This document shows positions 1 through 22,270 of a DNA stretch of 35,124 nt, one piece after another. The notes beneath the pieces were generated by a model. The model had not been told where the DNA came from. It saw only the letters and a program-made list of their open reading frames with translations, and ran no database searches. Positions within the stretch are counted from its first letter, which is position 1, and every line of letters starts with the position of its first letter. The DNA is from Akkermansiaceae bacterium (GTDB lineage Bacteria > Verrucomicrobiota > Verrucomicrobiia > Verrucomicrobiales > Akkermansiaceae), in the NCBI GenBank assembly GCA_028822695.1, contig JAPKDA010000015.1, positions 1 through 35,124 of the forward strand. The letters run 5' to 3'. The translations under genes were made by a program, and so were the position numbers.

Positions 1-1
1 G

Positions 2-379
2 CCCACCGAGTTCGTGCCGCAACGCTTCGCCTACAATCACATCCTGCTGCATCCAACCAACCGCGCAGATGGAAAGCCACACAAGATCAGTGTCACACTG
101 CGAGGCAAACCGAATGCAGACGAGAGCGCTGATTGGCGCTTCGGTTTCTGCGTAATCACCAGTGACGATCAGCCGCGCTATGTCAGTCCCGCAACTGATG
201 GAAAACGCGCAACCGTCAAGCTGGCCGCGAACGACAAACGGGTCTACCTGGTCGTCATGGCCACGCCGGACAATCTGCTCCCATTCGACGTCCTCGACCC
301 GAAGGAGGAAGATGTCCCACGCTATCCCTACACAGTGAAGATCCAGGGAGCCGTCCCGGACCAGGAGACTGATGATTGA
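2..379 (+). CDS. C-terminal part of a probable DUF6055-like secreted protein (5' end outside window)
   Basis: The frame is open from the first base to a TGA at 377-379, so only the last 125 or so residues are visible. The fragment has a beta-rich look, with a run of short strands and a closing YPYTVKIQGAVPD segment, which resembles the C-terminal sandwich domain of large secreted DUF6055/Svx-type proteins. That assignment is tentative because the catalytic part is missing. Codons end mostly in C (gcc, atc, acc), unlike the G-ending codons of most plus-strand genes farther on, which suggests recent arrival or relocation. A 72-bp dispersed repeat starts 20 bases after the stop. The GTG at 14 is not a believable start because the reading frame continues upstream. 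Confidence 0.6.
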   Translation, partial: PTEFVPQRFAYNHILLHPTNRADGKPHKISVTLRGKPNADESADWRFGFCVITSDDQPRYVSPATDGKRATVKLAANDKRVYLVVMATPDNLLPFDVLDPKEEDVPRYPYTVKIQGAVPDQETDD

Positions 380-398
380 ACCCATGCGAACGCGCGCG

Positions 399-470
399 GC
401 TGCTAGGAATTTGCTTTTGGGGTGGGGCGCTTGGGGCGCCGTTGAGGGGATCGGAGAGGGGTGAAAGGGG
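399..470 (+). repeat. 72-bp direct repeat, copy 1
   Basis: This segment begins gctgctaggaattt and ends gtgaaagggg. It recurs in the same orientation at 2301-2373 with about five differences, one of them a single-base indel. Sequence diverges at both edges in both copies. The two copies bracket the FAD oxidoreductase gene and a broken gene. Confidence 0.85.
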
Positions 471-500
471 GTTGTTCGTTACACTTGAAAAATAACAGTT

Positions 501-2126
501 ATGAGAAAATTCGGAATGAATGGCGGCGCGAAAGGTCTTTGGATTGCGATCCTCGGACTTGGCATGACGGTTGCATCAATGGCTGATCTCACCGAGGTGG
601 ATCTGGTCTACGACATTGTCGTGTATGGCGACTCATCCGGCGCGGTGACGGCGGCGGTTTCCGCGAAGCGGCAGGGGCGCTCGGTGATGCTCGTGAACCC
701 GACCGGCTTTCTCGGCGGGATGAGTGCGAGCGGCCTCGGCGCGACGGATTTCCTCGGCAGGCGAGACACCTTCGGGGGGATCGCCTCGGAGTTCTACGAT
801 GCGGTCGCCGCAGCGTACGGGCAGAAATATGTGCGCAGCTTCGAGCCGCATGTGGGGCAGGGAGTTTTCGCGAAACTTATCGCAGATGCAGGCGTGGATG
901 TCGTTTTCAACGAGAGGCTGAACCGCGAGCCGGGCATGGGGGTGAAAATGGAAAACGGGCGCATCGTTTCCATCACCGCCCTCAGCGGGAAGACCTATCG
1001 TGGCAAGATGTTTATCGACGCGACCTATGTCGGAGACTTGATGGCCGCCGCAGGAGTGACCTTTACCGTCGGGCGCGAGCCGGAGAGCCAATACGGCGAG
1101 AACCTGGCCGGAGTCCGACGCGGCGATACCAAGCCCCGCGTCCACTACACGCAGCGCGACAAAGACCATTTCATCAAGGATGTGGATCCCTACGTCGTCC
1201 CCGGCGATCCGGCGAGTGGACTGCTGCCGCAGGTGCAAAATATCGAGAGCCTCACCAACGGTCAGAGCGACAAAAAGATCCAAGCCTACAACTACCGCGT
1301 CTGCCTGACAACGGATCTAAAGCTCCACATTCCCATCGAAAAACCCGAGGGCTACCGCGCTGTCGACCATGAGCTTTTGCTGCGGAACTTCGAGGCGGGA
1401 GACAAACGCTTTCCCGCCTTGGTTGAGCCGCTGGCCGGAACCGGATCGAAGGTGGACTGGAACCACATGCACGCGATCGGCTCCGACCACCCGGGTGCGA
1501 ACTGGGACTATCCGGAGGCGAGCTACGAGAGGCGGCGGGAAATCGAGAAGGAGCACGAGACCTACATCCGCGGGTTTCTCTGGACCATGTCGAACAGCCC
1601 TCGGGTTCCAGAGGCGCTGCGCAAAAAGGTCACGGCATACGGCCTGCCCAAGGACGAGTTCAAGGACAACGGCGGCTGGCCCTATATGATCTACATCCGC
1701 GAGGCGCGGCGCATGGTTTCCGACTACGTGATGACCCAGCACAACTGCGAAGGGAAGCGGAAGGCGGAGGATGCTGTCGGGCTTGGCTCGTTCGGCATGG
1801 ACTCGCACGTGGTCCAGCATTTCGTCACCGAGCGGGGCTTTGTCCGGAACGACGGGACGATCTGGCGCGTCCCGCCGAAGCCATACGGGATTTCCTATCG
1901 CTCCATCATCCCGCGCAAGAGCGAGTGCGCGAACCTGTTCTCGCCCATCTGCCTATCGACATCGCACGTCGCTCATGGATCGATCCGGATGGAGCCGGTG
2001 TTCATGGTGCTTTCCGAAAGCGCTGCCATCGCGGCGGGGCTTGCGATCGACAGCGGCAAGGACGTGCAGGAAATTGAATGGAAGGAACTGCGGAAGCGGC
2101 TGCGTAGCAATGGGCAGAAGTTTTGA
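501..2126 (+). CDS. Secreted FAD-dependent oxidoreductase (FAD_oxidored family)
   Basis: The 541-residue product starts with a basic N-terminus and a hydrophobic stretch (about residues 10-28) that looks like a signal peptide. Next come the dinucleotide-binding region DIVVYGDSSGAVTAAVSA (about 38-55) and the LGGMSASGLGATD segment (about 71-83), which match the N-terminus of secreted FAD-dependent oxidoreductases common in Planctomycetota and Verrucomicrobiota. The glycine motif is degenerate (YGDSSGA where YGGTSAG is usual), so FAD binding may be altered. The C-terminal SAAIAAGLAID segment is also typical. The substrate is unknown; family members sit among polysaccharide-use genes. The gene stands alone between two direct repeats, and its codon use mixes C- and G-ending codons, unlike its downstream neighbours. 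Confidence 0.85.
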   Translation: MRKFGMNGGAKGLWIAILGLGMTVASMADLTEVDLVYDIVVYGDSSGAVTAAVSAKRQGRSVMLVNPTGFLGGMSASGLGATDFLGRRDTFGGIASEFYDAVAAAYGQKYVRSFEPHVGQGVFAKLIADAGVDVVFNERLNREPGMGVKMENGRIVSITALSGKTYRGKMFIDATYVGDLMAAAGVTFTVGREPESQYGENLAGVRRGDTKPRVHYTQRDKDHFIKDVDPYVVPGDPASGLLPQVQNIESLTNGQSDKKIQAYNYRVCLTTDLKLHIPIEKPEGYRAVDHELLLRNFEAGDKRFPALVEPLAGTGSKVDWNHMHAIGSDHPGANWDYPEASYERRREIEKEHETYIRGFLWTMSNSPRVPEALRKKVTAYGLPKDEFKDNGGWPYMIYIREARRMVSDYVMTQHNCEGKRKAEDAVGLGSFGMDSHVVQHFVTERGFVRNDGTIWRVPPKPYGISYRSIIPRKSECANLFSPICLSTSHVAHGSIRMEPVFMVLSESAAIAAGLAIDSGKDVQEIEWKELRKRLRSNGQKF

Positions 2127-2146
2127 AATTTTCGACCAGAGAGTTT

Positions 2147-2308
2147 ATGAGAGCGATACGAATCACATCGGCCTTCGTGCGGTTCACTTGCATCGCGGGC
2201 GTTTTTTCGGTGCAGGGGAAAAGCTCATCCCAATACAAAGTCACCGAGTCCTTGGACATCGCCGAGGTTGTGTCGGATTTTTGCGTGGGCTTCCGCTTGA
2301 GCTGCTAG
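2147..2308 (+). pseudogene. 5' remnant of a secreted BNR-repeat-like protein
   Basis: An ATG at 2147 opens a 53-codon frame with a signal-peptide-like start followed by SLDIAEVVSDFCVGFRL. This resembles the mature N-terminus of BNR_4-type proteins, where a 'VWSGHPVGFxLLT'-like segment is expected. The frame ends at a TAG that lies inside direct repeat copy 2, exactly where homology to the family would continue. The simplest reading is a gene cut by the repeat or by recombination at it. It sits 20 bases after the oxidoreductase stop, so the two may once have been co-transcribed. The family assignment rests on one short motif. Confidence 0.4.
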
Positions 2309-2373
2309 GAATTTACTTTTGGGGCGGGGCGCTTGAGGTCGCCGTTGAGGGGATCGGAGAGGGGTGAAAGGGG
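2301..2373 (+). repeat. 73-bp direct repeat, copy 2
   Basis: This is the second copy of the element at 399-470, in the same orientation, with roughly 93% identity by eye. Its left edge truncates the plus-strand BNR-like remnant. On the minus strand its right half supplies the last codons and stop of another remnant (2313-2513). Confidence 0.85.
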
Positions 2374-2513
2374 TTATCCATTGGGATGGGATCGGTGGGG
2401 AGGACTTTCTTGCCCTCCCAGATGACTTCCTTGGTTTCGGAGTCGTAGGTGAGGATGCGGGAGTGGCTGCCGGGGGCGGGTTGGCGGCTGACTTTGGGGA
2501 TCCATTTTTTGCG
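2313..2513 (-). pseudogene. C-terminal remnant of an unidentified protein
   Basis: A minus-strand frame with no start codon of its own runs 66 codons to a TAA at 2315-2313. It contains a protein-like segment with HSRILTYDSETKEVIWEGKK, which reads like a beta-hairpin from a repeat or propeller protein. The upstream frame is closed by a TGA at 2516-2514. The final residues are encoded by direct repeat copy 2. No family was recognised with confidence. It is best read as the 3' scrap of a decayed gene, possibly frameshifted from the minus-strand fragment at 2580-2728. Confidence 0.4.
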
Positions 2514-2579
2514 TCATGATCGATGAGAGAATGGACTGTGGTAGCCTGATGTTTGCCCCGCGTTACCTTTTGGGCTGCC

Positions 2580-2728
2580 GGGGATGTCAAAATTGGACGA
2601 ATGATCTTTTTTTGGACGCGTTGATTAGCCGTTTCATACGGGTCTTCACTGACCACCCGGGCGATGGTGATCTCGTCGAGCGGGAAGGCACAGGAAGTGT
2701 TCATAAAAGCACCATCTACTTGGGGCAA
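2580..2728 (-). pseudogene. Possible minus-strand gene fragment
   Basis: The frame starting at an ATG at 2728 reads PLDEITIARVVSEDPYETAN with C-ending codons typical of minus-strand genes in this window. It then loses any protein-like character. With the remnant at 2313-2513 it could belong to one decayed gene joined by frameshifts. The rest of the 2.5-2.9 kb gap holds G-rich noncoding sequence and no other supported feature. Confidence 0.25.
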
Positions 2729-2910
2729 GGTTCTCCGGGTTGGGATGGATGGGGAGGGTAGGGAGGTCGTGGGAGTTGGAGCGAAAGCGGTGTCGCCGGT
2801 CGTTCCTCCCCCTGCCTCCGCAGTCCAAAAGGCTTCGGCTCCTGCCGCGCCTTGCGCCCTTTCCTGTATGGTGTAGGACTTCTGGGCCGTAAGGACGGGG
2901 TTGAATTGTG

Positions 2911-3975
2911 ATGAGCACTGAAATTTTGGAGAGCAAGGGGGCGCTGGATGCGCATACGCGGGAGATGGTGGCCTGGCATTTTTCGGGGGAGACGGGGTGT
3001 GCGTATTGGTTGGAGAGGGCGAAGGGGTTTGATTTTGATCCGTTGAAGGACATCACCTGTTTTGCGGATATGGTGAAATTTGACCATTTCGACGATGAGG
3101 TGCTGCGGAAGGAGGATCCGGCGCGGTTTGTGCCGCAGGCGTTTGCGGGGAAGCCTTACAATGTCTTTGAGACTGGTGGGACGACGGGGATGCCGAAGCA
3201 GAGGATTGGGTGGGAGGATTTTCGGACGGATTATTCGGAGTTTTCGGATCACTATCCGGCGGACTTTTTCCCGCAGGGAGCGAATTGGTTGATGGTGGGG
3301 CCGACGGGGCCGAGGCGATTGCGGATGGCGATCGAGCACCTCGCGAATCGGCGGGGTGGGGCGTGTTACTTTATTGATCTGGATCCGCGCTGGGTGAAGC
3401 GGTTGATCGGGATGGGGGAGATGAAGATGGCGAAGTTGTATCAGGAGCACGTCATCGATCAGGCGGCGACGATCATTCGGCATCGGGATATTGGCTGTCT
3501 GTTCACGACGCCGAAGTTGTTGGAGAGTTTGGCGGAGCGGATGTCGCTGGTGGATGCGGGAATTAAAGGAGTGTTTGCGGGAGGGACGACGATGACGCCG
3601 CAGTATGTGCGGTTTATTGAGGAGGAGGTGTTGGAAGGGAAGATCAACTATGCGCCGACTTACGGGAACACCTTGATGGGGTTGGCGATCAGCAAGAAGC
3701 GGGAGCCGGGTGAGTATTCGCTGACTTACTACGCGCCACAGCCACGGGCGATGCTGCGGGTGGTGAATCCGGATGAGCCGGATGAGTTGGTTGGCTACGG
3801 CGAGTATGGCCGGGTGGAGTTGACGACGATGACGAAGGAGTTCTTCATGCCGCGGTTTTTGGAGCGGGATGAGGCGATACGAAGGGAGCCTTGTGCGGAA
3901 TTTGCTTGGGATGGGGTGGGGGATGTGAGGCCGTTTCAGTCTGATGGGAAGGCGGTGATTGAGGGAGTTTATTAA
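2911..3975 (+). CDS. LuxE/PaaK-like acyl-adenylate-forming enzyme
   Basis: This 354-residue protein belongs to the adenylate-forming superfamily. The phosphate-binding loop ETGGTTGMPK lies at about residues 87-96. A G-G-T-T segment (FAGGTTMTP) and a conserved Y-G-N-T region follow at mid-length. The length is close to LuxE acyl-protein synthetases (about 370) and shorter than phenylacetate-CoA ligases (about 430), so the mobile C-terminal lid may be reduced. It probably activates a carboxylic acid as acyl-AMP for transfer to a thiol or to a partner enzyme. It leads a tight plus-strand set with an aldehyde dehydrogenase and an alcohol dehydrogenase. I chose the ATG at 2911 over the GTG just before it. 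The substrate is unknown. Confidence 0.75.
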   Translation: MSTEILESKGALDAHTREMVAWHFSGETGCAYWLERAKGFDFDPLKDITCFADMVKFDHFDDEVLRKEDPARFVPQAFAGKPYNVFETGGTTGMPKQRIGWEDFRTDYSEFSDHYPADFFPQGANWLMVGPTGPRRLRMAIEHLANRRGGACYFIDLDPRWVKRLIGMGEMKMAKLYQEHVIDQAATIIRHRDIGCLFTTPKLLESLAERMSLVDAGIKGVFAGGTTMTPQYVRFIEEEVLEGKINYAPTYGNTLMGLAISKKREPGEYSLTYYAPQPRAMLRVVNPDEPDELVGYGEYGRVELTTMTKEFFMPRFLERDEAIRREPCAEFAWDGVGDVRPFQSDGKAVIEGVY

Positions 3976-3976
3976 C

Positions 3977-4001
3977 GGAGGTCAGTGGTCGGAGGTCAGC
4001 G
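3977..4001 (+). repeat. Dispersed GGAGGTCAG-type repeat
   Basis: The 38-base gap between the adenylating enzyme and the aldehyde dehydrogenase is filled by a tandem-like ggaggtcagtggtcggaggt sequence. Similar text occurs at 32834-32851, at about 11996 and at about 17945, so this is a dispersed repeat and not a dedicated control site. Confidence 0.5.
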
Positions 4002-4013
4002 GAGAAAGAGATT

Positions 4014-5522
4014 ATGAGTAAGAGAAATGAAATACCGATTTTGAGGTTGGGGGAGACTTATCGGTCGATGGACCAGGTGGAGCTGGATTTGGGGGAGAAG
4101 GGGACGCTGGTGACGCATACGGCGAATCCGGGGCTGATTCGGAGGGATCTGCTGCAGATCGGGAAGGCGAAGGCGGCGTTGGATGCGATTCCGGCGGAGA
4201 CGTTGGCGGATTATTGTGAGGAGGCGGCGGGGTTGTTTTTGGAGGGGGATTTGGAGTGTGGGGTGGAGAGCGGGGACGATGCGGGGACTGGGGCTGGGGG
4301 GCGGGGTTGTGGAGGCGGGTTGGAAACCCACGCTCCTGTAATTCAGTCGCCGCAGGATTATGTGGAGTCGTTGTCGGCGTTGACGCGGTTGCCGCATACG
4401 TTGGTAAGGATGAATATGGGGAAGATCCATTCGGCGATGTCGGAGATCCGGACGGTGATCGGGGGGCTGACGCGGAAGATGCCGCTGGAGATTTTTGATA
4501 AGGGGCTGACGCGGGATGGGGATCTGACGATCAATTATTTTCCGACGACGACGTCGCTGGGGGTGTCGCTGCCGAGTAATGCGCCGGCGGTGAATTCGTT
4601 GTGGATTCCGGCGCCGGTGATGAAGATTCCGGTGCTGTTGAAGCCGGGGCGGGAGGATCCGTTCACGCCGCTGCGGATCGTGCAGGCGATGATTGCGGCC
4701 GGGTTTCCGAAGGAGGCGTTCGGGTATTATCCGACGACGCACGAGGGTGGGGACACGCTGTTGACGTCTTGTGGGCGCGGGATTTCGTTCGGGTCGGATG
4801 TCACCGTGAAGAAGTATGCGCCTTACCCGAGCATTTCGGTACACGGGACGGGGCGGTCGAAGATTTTGATCGGGGAGGACATGATCGATCGGTGGGAGGA
4901 GTTTGTGGATGTGATGGTGCAGTCGATTTCGGCGAATGGGGGGCGGTCGTGTATTAATACGTCGGCGATTTTGGTGCCGCGGCATCGGGAAAAAATTGCG
5001 GAGGCGGTGGCGAAGCGCTTGGCGGAGATTGAGCCGTTGGCGCGGGATGATGAGAATGCGTTGTTGTGCGGCTTTGCGAATCCGGCGATGGCGGAGGGGA
5101 TTGATGGGATGATTTCATCGCAGTTGAAGGGGGAAGGGGCGGAGGATGTGACGGCGAGGTTTCGGAAGGGGGAGTTGAAGGTGGAGGCGTTTGAGCAGAC
5201 GTATTTGTGTCCGACGTTGGTTTCGTGCACGGATCGGGATCATGCGCTGGCGAATACGGAGTTCATGTTTCCGTATGCGAGTATCGTGGAGATGCCGCAG
5301 GCGGAGATGGTGGGGAGTATCGGGGCGACGCTGGTGGTGTCGGCGTTTACGGAGGATGAGGGGTTTATCGAGGAGTTGTTGTTGAGTGCTGATATTGAGA
5401 GGCTGAATATTGGACCGTATCCGACGAACCGGGTGCAGTGGGAGCAGCCGCATGAGGGGAACTTGTTTGAGTTTTTGTATCGGAGGCGGGCGATCCAGGG
5501 GGATACGGCGGGGTTGGCGTAA
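4014..5522 (+). CDS. Aldehyde-dehydrogenase-fold enzyme, possible acyl reductase, with an in-frame repeat insertion
   Basis: The 502-residue product has the aldehyde dehydrogenase fold. The nucleotide-binding half is around 170-260 (SLPSNAPAVNSLW, then PVLLKPGREDPFTPLR), and the catalytic cysteine is in ANGGRSCINTS, Cys313. The closing NLFEFLYRRRAIQ also looks family-specific. Between an adenylating enzyme and an alcohol dehydrogenase, it could reduce an activated acid to an aldehyde, as LuxC does after LuxE, or oxidise an aldehyde; the sequence cannot decide. Residues about 81-111 are a low-complexity Gly/Asp-rich insert encoded by a palindromic intergenic-type repeat. The stop TAA overlaps the next ATG (TAATG), which indicates translational coupling. 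Confidence 0.8.
   Translation: MSKRNEIPILRLGETYRSMDQVELDLGEKGTLVTHTANPGLIRRDLLQIGKAKAALDAIPAETLADYCEEAAGLFLEGDLECGVESGDDAGTGAGGRGCGGGLETHAPVIQSPQDYVESLSALTRLPHTLVRMNMGKIHSAMSEIRTVIGGLTRKMPLEIFDKGLTRDGDLTINYFPTTTSLGVSLPSNAPAVNSLWIPAPVMKIPVLLKPGREDPFTPLRIVQAMIAAGFPKEAFGYYPTTHEGGDTLLTSCGRGISFGSDVTVKKYAPYPSISVHGTGRSKILIGEDMIDRWEEFVDVMVQSISANGGRSCINTSAILVPRHREKIAEAVAKRLAEIEPLARDDENALLCGFANPAMAEGIDGMISSQLKGEGAEDVTARFRKGELKVEAFEQTYLCPTLVSCTDRDHALANTEFMFPYASIVEMPQAEMVGSIGATLVVSAFTEDEGFIEELLLSADIERLNIGPYPTNRVQWEQPHEGNLFEFLYRRRAIQGDTAGLA
4256..4347 (+). repeat. Palindromic repeat inserted in frame within the aldehyde dehydrogenase gene
   Basis: This stretch is a G-rich run followed by a hairpin gggtt-gga-aaccc at 4317-4329 and the text cacgctcctgtaattcag. 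That resembles an intergenic repeat and not enzyme sequence. It adds about 30 residues without breaking the frame, before the conserved core. The GGA loop matches the hairpins at 14036, 18028 and 22172. Confidence 0.6.
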
Positions 5523-6643
5523 TGCAGAGTTTTGAAACCAGATCGACGCCGCGGTTGGTGGCTGGTGCGGGGGCCTTGGCAAAGTTGCCGGACTGTGTGC
5601 AGGGCGTTGGCGGGACGCATGTGTTGTTGGTGACGGATGCGGGGCTGATTGAGGCGGGGCATGCGGGGCATGCGATCAAGTTTCTGGAGGATGCGGGGGT
5701 GAAGGTGACGTGTTATGATCATGCGCATGTGAATCCTTCGGAGTCGGATATTGAGGCGTGTCGGGAGTTTGCGGCGGGGGTGTCGGTAGATTGTATTGTG
5801 GGGTTTGGTGGGGGGAGCAGCATGGACACGGCGAAGGGGTGTAATTTTCTGCTGAGCAACGGGGGGCGGATGAGTGACTACAAGGGGTATGGGCTGGCGA
5901 AGGAGGCGATGTTGCCGTTCATTGCGGTGCCGACGACGGCGGGGACGGGGAGTGAGTGTCAATCGTATGCGGTGGTGAGTCGGGATGGCTCGCATGAGAA
6001 GATCGCGTGTGGTGATCCGAAGGCGTTGGCGAGGGTGGCCTTGTTGGATCCGGAGTTGACGGTGTCGCAGCCCTTGAAGGTGGCGTCGCTGACGGCGCTG
6101 GATGCGCTGTCGCACGCTTTGGAGGCGGCGGTGTGTACGCGGAAGAATCCGGTGTCGGCGATCTACGCGAAGGAAGGGTTTAAGAGGATCGCGTCGGGGA
6201 TCGAGATGGTGTTGCAGGATGCGGCGCTGCTCGAGCATCGGGCGTCGATGCAGATTGGGGCGGCCTTTGCGGGGATGGCGATTGAGAACAGTATGTTGGG
6301 AGCAGCGCATGCTGCGGCGAATCCGTTGACGGCGAAATTTGGGGCGGTGCACGGTCATGCGGTGGCGCTGATGTTGCCGGAGGTGATGCGGTGGAATCGG
6401 GAGGAGCGGTCGGCGACAGCAGTGTATTTGGAGTTGGCGGGGATGATCCAGGAGCCGTTGGTGGAGTGGGTGGAGCAGGTGATTGGTTTGGCGAAGCTGC
6501 CGGATCTGGCGGGGTGTGGGGTGACGAAGGAGGCGATTCCGGACTTGGCGGCGGATGCGGCGACGCAGTGGACGGGGCAGTTTAATCCGCGGCCGTTGAC
6601 GGAGGAGGATTTTGCGGGGTTGTATGGGAGGGTGTTGGGGTAG
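5522..6643 (+). CDS. Iron-containing alcohol dehydrogenase
   Basis: The 373-residue protein has the length and motif order of group III iron-dependent alcohol dehydrogenases. A GGGSSMDTAKG nucleotide-binding segment lies near residue 98, then PTTAGTGSE near 139. The metal-binding part includes DALSHALEA near 195, a histidine in AHAAANPL near 264, and HGHAVALMLP near 279. It would interconvert an aldehyde and an alcohol with NAD(P)H in the cytoplasm. The ATG overlaps the aldehyde dehydrogenase stop, so the two proteins are made together. With the upstream adenylating enzyme they form an acid-to-aldehyde-to-alcohol set. The substrate is unknown. Confidence 0.9.
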   Translation: MQSFETRSTPRLVAGAGALAKLPDCVQGVGGTHVLLVTDAGLIEAGHAGHAIKFLEDAGVKVTCYDHAHVNPSESDIEACREFAAGVSVDCIVGFGGGSSMDTAKGCNFLLSNGGRMSDYKGYGLAKEAMLPFIAVPTTAGTGSECQSYAVVSRDGSHEKIACGDPKALARVALLDPELTVSQPLKVASLTALDALSHALEAAVCTRKNPVSAIYAKEGFKRIASGIEMVLQDAALLEHRASMQIGAAFAGMAIENSMLGAAHAAANPLTAKFGAVHGHAVALMLPEVMRWNREERSATAVYLELAGMIQEPLVEWVEQVIGLAKLPDLAGCGVTKEAIPDLAADAATQWTGQFNPRPLTEEDFAGLYGRVLG

Positions 6644-22066: not shown

Positions 22067-22079
22067 TCGTGGCTGTCGC

Positions 22080-22212
22080 GTCTCGCGGCAGGCCGTTCCT
22101 GCGGCGTCTCGCCGCAAGGGTTGGAAGGAGGGGAATTAGCGAGTGTCGAAATTCGGTTTGTTGTGCTAAGGCCTCGGCGGGACGCCGAGGGAACGGCCTG
22201 CGGCAGGATGCC
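22080..22212. repeat. Inverted pair of palindromic repeats
   Basis: The left arm (about 22083-22115) contains gcggcg-tct-cgccgc and caggccgttcctgcgg. The right arm contains cctcggcg-gga-cgccgagg (22172-22190) followed by gaacggcctgcggca. The arms are near reverse complements over about 32 bases, giving a composite element like a bacterial interspersed mosaic element. It fills the gap between the permease and esterase genes. Confidence 0.75.
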
Positions 22213-22270
22213 TCAGCCACGAGGAGAAGATGTCGATTGAATTGGTGGATTGGGATCGTAGGGTGGGGTG

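Follow-up and report, generated by a model that had tools for sequence, protein, structure and literature searches.

Short solo right ends of an IS91-family element at gene-fragment joints in Verrucomicrobiota

We identify, from sequence comparison, the pair of direct repeats near the start of the window (the whole stretch of 35,124 nucleotides analysed here) as short copies, about 65-80 bp long, of the right end of a rolling-circle (HUH transposase) element of the IS91 family, widespread in Verrucomicrobiales. Copies of this end are found at joints of unrelated gene fragments and in co-oriented clusters, and because of this position the repeats probably help to shuffle genes. We consider it likely that solo IS91-family right ends stand at these joints and in these arrays through the action of a transposase in trans, which would have captured adjoining DNA; no transposition was observed.

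The two window copies match over their full length with 94.5% identity and one gap, lie in the same orientation with 1.83 kb in between (Table 1), and have dispersed matches far beyond chance, which confirms that the direct repeat pair reported in the original prediction is real. The aligned limits are 399-470 and 2301-2373, and the left copy reaches 474 if its inner GTTG is included. Its outer end is GCTG (399-402), followed by CTAGGAATTTGCTTTT, and its inner end is GTTG (471-474), whereas the inner end of the right copy is GGGGTTA. Viewed on the minus strand, the left copy corresponds to the 3′ end of an IS91-family element, ...AAATTCCTAGCAGC.

As had been noted from the sequence, the left copy follows a DUF6055-like gene (Table 1). 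For the oxidoreductase gene between the copies, a search of 38 genomes gave, apart from its own match, a best DNA match of 71% identity, found in G022 in a different setting. The right copy had also been described as truncating a BNR-like frame; a frame is indeed ended by the TAG of the repeat, but the label 'BNR' is without Pfam support, as the 53-codon frame at 2147..2308 gave no Pfam match. On the other side of the right copy, the adjoining 135 bases match a gene end in G008 (90% identity) and G020 (86% identity) and correspond to residues 441-484 of a 486-residue sulfatase (39 of 44 identical to the G008 orthologue), a gene of 486 aa that is intact in relatives and is here joined to the repeat two residues before its stop. 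Each solo end is followed on its inner side by DNA cut on the far side, namely the oxidoreductase gene and the cut frame after the left copy and the sulfatase tail after the right copy. The segment at 475..2300 may be regarded as a captured or trapped piece. The earlier statement that no transposase is present, and hence no standard insertion sequence, stands for the segment itself, and none of six ORFs scanned in 1-6640 is a transposase; the repeat, however, is a solo IS91-family end with its transposase gene on another contig.

Table 1. Coordinates of the repeat copies, adjoining genes and LexA-like sites (window positions unless a locus is named).
Feature	Position	Strand	Basis or remark
DUF6055 gene, 3′ part	2..379	+	PF19527, E 2e-19; 20 bases before left copy
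Left copy, solo right (origin) end	399..474	+	Pairwise comparison, family model, link to transposase
Segment between co-oriented copies (left copy inner end to right copy outer end)	475..2300	.	Position
FAD-dependent oxidoreductase gene, complete, 541 aa	501..2126	+	PF12831, E 2e-99
53-codon frame	2147..2308	+	Cut by right copy outer end; stop is TAG in repeat head
Right copy, same orientation as left	2301..2375	+	Inner end GGGGTT, then A
Sulfatase gene fragment	2377..2511	-	Joined to right copy inner end
LexA-like palindrome	L012:2249-2262, L126:351-364, L051:16219-16232, L204:11472-11485		TGTTC-N4-GAACA

The link to a parent element came from 889 ORFs found no further than 2.5 kb from any of 342 copies, spread over 170 loci (duplicate loci and loci judged irrelevant were removed beforehand). 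Clustering of these ORFs yielded a largest cluster of 71 ORFs in 49 loci and one small cluster (5 ORFs, 5 loci) of IS91-like transposases. A tblastn search with one IS91-like protein returned 15 loci on 14 independent contigs (L134 being the same as L051), and at 13 of these 14 the C-terminal end of the transposase gene or its remnant faces the inner end of the repeat, at a distance of 202-234 bp in 12 loci and 434 bp in one; a fragmentary locus, L230, is the exception. When seven elements, from different genomes, were aligned in pairs, the similarity extended through gene and copy to the outer end of the repeat and essentially ended there, eight 3′ regions align as far as CCTAGCAG and diverge beyond it, and the elements compared end 3′ of the transposase gene at CCTAGCARY, a constant origin end. 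The transposase genes facing the repeat, together with alignments ending at its head, show that the repeat represents an IS91-family element's right end, on the origin side.

The element of the source genome, on contig C190 (L012), is about 1.8 kb long, and its transposase frame is open (L012:749-2242, 498 aa, without internal stop), with HPHLH at 175 and YYG at 322. The transposase domains Y2_Tnp (PF04986) and Zn_Tnp_IS91 (PF14319) were matched, and the NCBIfam IS91 model NF033538 scored 169 and 181 bits, above its cut-off of 125, while the ISCR clade Ia model NF052416 gave 101 and 95.7 bits against a cut-off of 925. Terminal inverted repeats were not found within the repeat, and the far (ter) end was placed only to ~20-40 nt upstream of the start codon. 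The window copies are of a different subfamily from the full-length C190 element, and the closest link for their type is a decayed element in G039 (L214).

Copies share a layout in which the head ([AG][CT]TGCTAGGAATTTGCTTTT) is constant, the middle varies, and the tail is rich in G and mostly ends in GGGGGTTG. When 216 copies were compared with element ends, 127 stopped at 60-84 bases, 45 ran further and 44 were shorter. Among 91 copies with a G-run and TTG, 78 turn to unrelated sequence directly after GTTG and 13 continue into the element; copies with additional CGGGGGAAA after GTTG are longer pieces of the element. The window copies, homologous to the right end, are cut at this inner tetranucleotide, although the right copy has GGGGTTA there in place of GTTG. 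At the outer end, 220 distinct copies were examined, and RYTG immediately precedes the head in 44 of them, compared with 0-16 at the other 24 offsets; tetranucleotide-specific insertion is weak because RYTG is found there in only these 44. Tandem head-truncated units are present as well (L114). Some copies, in L071, L125 and L014, carry a nested insert of ~30 bp (GTCGGTCGAAGCCTTGGCGAAG...) in the variable middle.

The repeat is far from unique to the window. BLAST gave 30 matches in the source genome (2.69 Mb, 226 contigs, the window being contig C69; E<=0.001) and matches in 6 of the 38 genomes searched, own included, and a covariance model found at least 43 copies in the source genome (E<=0.01; best 150 of 1878 candidates scored), which bears out the expectation of copies elsewhere in the genome and excludes a repeat occurring only here. 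Covariance-model counts, for genomes most of which are MAGs, were 43 in the source genome, 34 in G001, 47 in G020, 100 in Rubritalea profundi, 106 in G039, 91 in G040, 22 in G042 and 2 in G041. Both G041 copies (a 5.5-Mb MAG) lie on one 6-kb contig, C300 (L088), with flanks that nearly match contig C39 of the source genome, and this contig is likely a binning stray. An exact 20-base head pattern occurs in at least 108 stretches of genome contigs, where about one is estimated by chance, and nearly all of the 80 listed are from Verrucomicrobia or a genus of that phylum; the family is found almost only in Verrucomicrobiota. In plasmids, the single match (41 bases, Aeromonas) was taken as chance. 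Titles and abstract openings of the open-licence literature yielded no description of the repeat or of IS91 right-end arrays in Verrucomicrobia. An allele with a single repeat copy and without the oxidoreductase gene, anticipated for related strains, is roughly what G001 of the same genus has: the orthologous AMP-binding gene (89%) there is preceded, 1.4 kb upstream, by one head-only copy, and that locus gave no oxidoreductase match, but the other contents differ.

Clustering was assessed in the isolate R. profundi, which is assembled as one 4.16-Mb scaffold. Here, 49 neighbouring pairs of copies lie within 5 kb of each other, against 11 expected and a maximum of 23 in 2000 random placements. 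The two copies of a close pair mostly share their orientation, in 42 of 49 cases here and in 10 of 11 in the source genome. All 16 copies between 2.23 and 2.31 Mb are on one strand, and in three R. profundi regions tested for a replication-strand bias, copy orientation does not track GC skew. Copy boundaries also coincide with the ends of duplicated segments: of 108 such ends, 18 are no more than 6 bases away from a copy boundary, and this in just one of the two duplicates (mean 1.4 and maximum 4 when copies were slid 56 times as a control), a number in which some joints are counted repeatedly and four or five joints involve copies retaining inner element sequence. In several cases the duplicated flank adjoins the head, a position that does not follow directly from one-ended capture.

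Genomes G040 and G039, which have stretches up to 99% identical in common, allowed individual copies to be followed between strains. Of 42 G040 copies, those on L170 and L171 were compared with the whole of G039 and the rest with selected G039 stretches, and 22 have at least one flank alignable to G039. Eleven of these are common to both strains, one is absent from G039 at the same site, two have flanks at two different G039 loci, six have one flank that is present in G039 without the repeat, and two have one flank near a repeat. The sole present/absent site (L173/L181) differs by 9 bp as well, and the copies compared included no instance of a clean empty site bordered by intact sequence on both sides. 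In G040, the stretch L170:17234-18320, exactly between two copies, is the interior of an operon that in G039 is without the repeat; it starts within one gene and stops in the middle of an ATPase gene, presumably MoxR-like. The G040 copy at L173:3315 has on its head side the sequence that flanks one G039 copy there, and on its tail side the sequence that flanks a different one; over the 52 bp compared, all three copies are alike.

The last two cases bear on an alternative in which the solo ends are old and passive, and the window segment results from homologous recombination or deletion between dispersed copies with no capture. The swapped flanks at L173:3315 are in its favour, and PMC3189936 ascribes most genomic IS801 fragments to recombination. 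The donor operon of L170:17234-18320, however, is repeat-free in G039, so that recombination between existing repeats alone is insufficient, and neighbouring copies are strongly co-oriented. We hold a purely passive origin to be rather unlikely, although ordinary recombination between copies probably occurs as well. The proposal that the window segment was formed, and could be lost, by recombination between repeats therefore holds in so far as copies are associated with rearrangement; for the two copies of the window such an event was never observed, and one-ended capture rivals it. The truncated gene pieces and the arrays of one orientation agree with one-ended rolling-circle transposition no less well than with recombination.

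Under one-ended transposition, the element's transposase, acting in trans on solo ends, would nick at the outer end (the head) and peel off one strand. A stop at the inner GTTG would give the 77-bp form, a stop further on at a similar flanking tetranucleotide would carry gene pieces along, and repeated insertion beside an existing head could build arrays of one orientation. On this view the window would hold two captured pieces, the oxidoreductase segment and the sulfatase tail, unless these are remains of recombination between copies.

IS801 offers the closest parallels (PMC3189936). Its right end is constant, its left end is variable at a tetranucleotide, its transposase acts in trans, adjacent DNA is captured and fragments act as recombination sites. 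One-ended transposition there produced right-end miniatures of 229, 360 and 679 nt, amounting to 26.3% of IS801 insertions, and IS801 rarely carried along 290-1431 nt of neighbouring DNA, each piece ending at a left-end-like tetranucleotide (PMC3189936). The IS801 miniatures measure 229-679 nt and are few per genome, whereas the Verrucomicrobiota repeat is ~65-80 bp long and forms co-oriented arrays of gene fragments; of eight genomes in which its copies were counted, seven have 22-106 each and one has 2. ISCR elements (PMC13023784, PMC13393415) are similar in having an IS91-related HUH transposase, an oriIS downstream of the gene and a LexA-like palindrome ahead of it, and ~100 bp of oriIS is given as enough for one-ended transposition of ISCR1 (PMC13023784). 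The 22-bp ISCR1 oriIS and our repeat have TTCCTA in common, at the same 5-nt distance from the end, but the host phylum is another and, as reported above, the ISCR clade Ia score is far below cut-off.

The sequence TGTTC-N4-GAACA, which we take to be the LexA motif of Verrucomicrobia, immediately precedes the start of the transposase gene in each of the four independent elements whose 5′ end is included (Table 1), and occurs at only 10 sites in 2.10 Mb of collected sequence, L134 duplicating L051. Its position suggests that transposition may be damage-induced, as is reported for ISCR1/2/8. ISCR transposase genes are LexA-controlled in E. coli (PMC13393415). We tentatively extend this to a possible scenario in which an SOS-linked IS91-family transposase would act in trans on ~75-bp solo ends and build long co-oriented arrays of captured gene pieces across Verrucomicrobiales, by one-ended transposition as a counterpart of Helitron gene capture and integron-like in appearance. 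Helitrons share the rolling-circle logic, a loose terminator, transduction of flanking gene fragments and short non-autonomous forms; they differ in their RepHel proteins and in being eukaryotic (PMC4778049).

Short-read assemblers could in principle have mis-joined contigs at a short repeat, and many MAG copies do lie at contig ends while N-runs touch some R. profundi copies. We consider such an artefact improbable, as the isolate R. profundi has the same joints, clusters and orientation bias, diverged subfamilies recur in MAGs of many studies, and an assembler mis-threads repeats but makes no repeat-to-gene joints.

Sites of integron recombination (attC) have complementary ends, RYYYAAC...GTTRRRY. 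Copies that follow each other in one orientation every 0.3-5 kb, separated by single genes, resemble cassette arrays with an attC-like repeat; the copy ends, however, are not complementary (head GCTGCTAGG, tail GGGGGTTG), no palindromic fold exceeds that of shuffles, joints lie inside genes and the repeat is directly linked to an IS91 element, all of which makes an integron-like system very improbable. Mobilisation of REP-type repeats by a Y1 (RAYT) transposase is equally hard to sustain: Y1_Tnp genes are present in all six BLAST-positive genomes and one copy lies ~1 kb from a Y1 gene (L009), but such genes are also found in the repeat-negative G007 and G012, no copy occurs in 16 larger Y1_Tnp stretches or 10 loci of a Y1_Tnp search, and there is no end palindrome. 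A bacterial SINE, reverse-transcribed from the head, would show tail truncation and 4-nt iterations at the head; R. profundi has 15 head-only and 2 tail-only copies, and in 37 of 220 copies the four bases just before the head duplicate the first four of the copy (mean 13.4, maximum 22 in shuffled flanks). This origin seems scarcely credible all the same, since no RVT_1 match was found in the repeat-carrying G000, G020, G008 and G010, there is no RNA structure signal and the IS91 link explains the constant end.

Three further readings were rejected. In the reading as a coding C-terminus (reverse strand ...KANS* in some variants), variant positions often alter the residue and further variants shift the frame (judged by eye). 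A structured RNA had no Rfam match and an RNAalifold energy of -4.4 kcal/mol, and mean fold z-scores of -0.12 and 0.30 for the two strands across 33 clusters gave no structure signal. For a site-specific recombinase, the 2.7-3.5-kb loci of the three Phage_integrase genes in the source genome contain no copy.

MIRU and REP-type repeats (for REP, PMC3733652) are short, dispersed and mostly intergenic. The Verrucomicrobiota repeat is likewise short, dispersed and mostly intergenic, but it is non-palindromic and its parent transposon is identified. One-ended transposition of IS91/ISCR elements is held responsible for the movement of resistance genes, but PMC4778049 terms the evidence for capture circumstantial. 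With at most ~100 solo origin ends per genome, at joints and in arrays, the solo-end lineage would be a natural record of one-ended capture, from which the stop signal, capture length and orientation rules could be read. The repeat also accounts for breaks in many MAG contigs of this group.

A few observations stand beside these results. One copy on a viral contig (L229:4549-4627, IMG/VR) has a tail-gene-like ORF on one side and an integrase-like ORF of 445 aa on the other, and ORFs similar to these are found in G001 beside four identical copies (L032; all names by eye). At L005:2326, a copy cuts the apparent first codons of an IS3-type transposase gene, again by eye. The window itself contains four copies (9427, 13941, 23195 and 24242) of a second dispersed repeat, GAACACCCAATATCGAACAAGGAA..., and, at 22067-22222, a long imperfect inverted repeat with 48-nt arms and a 60 nt spacer.
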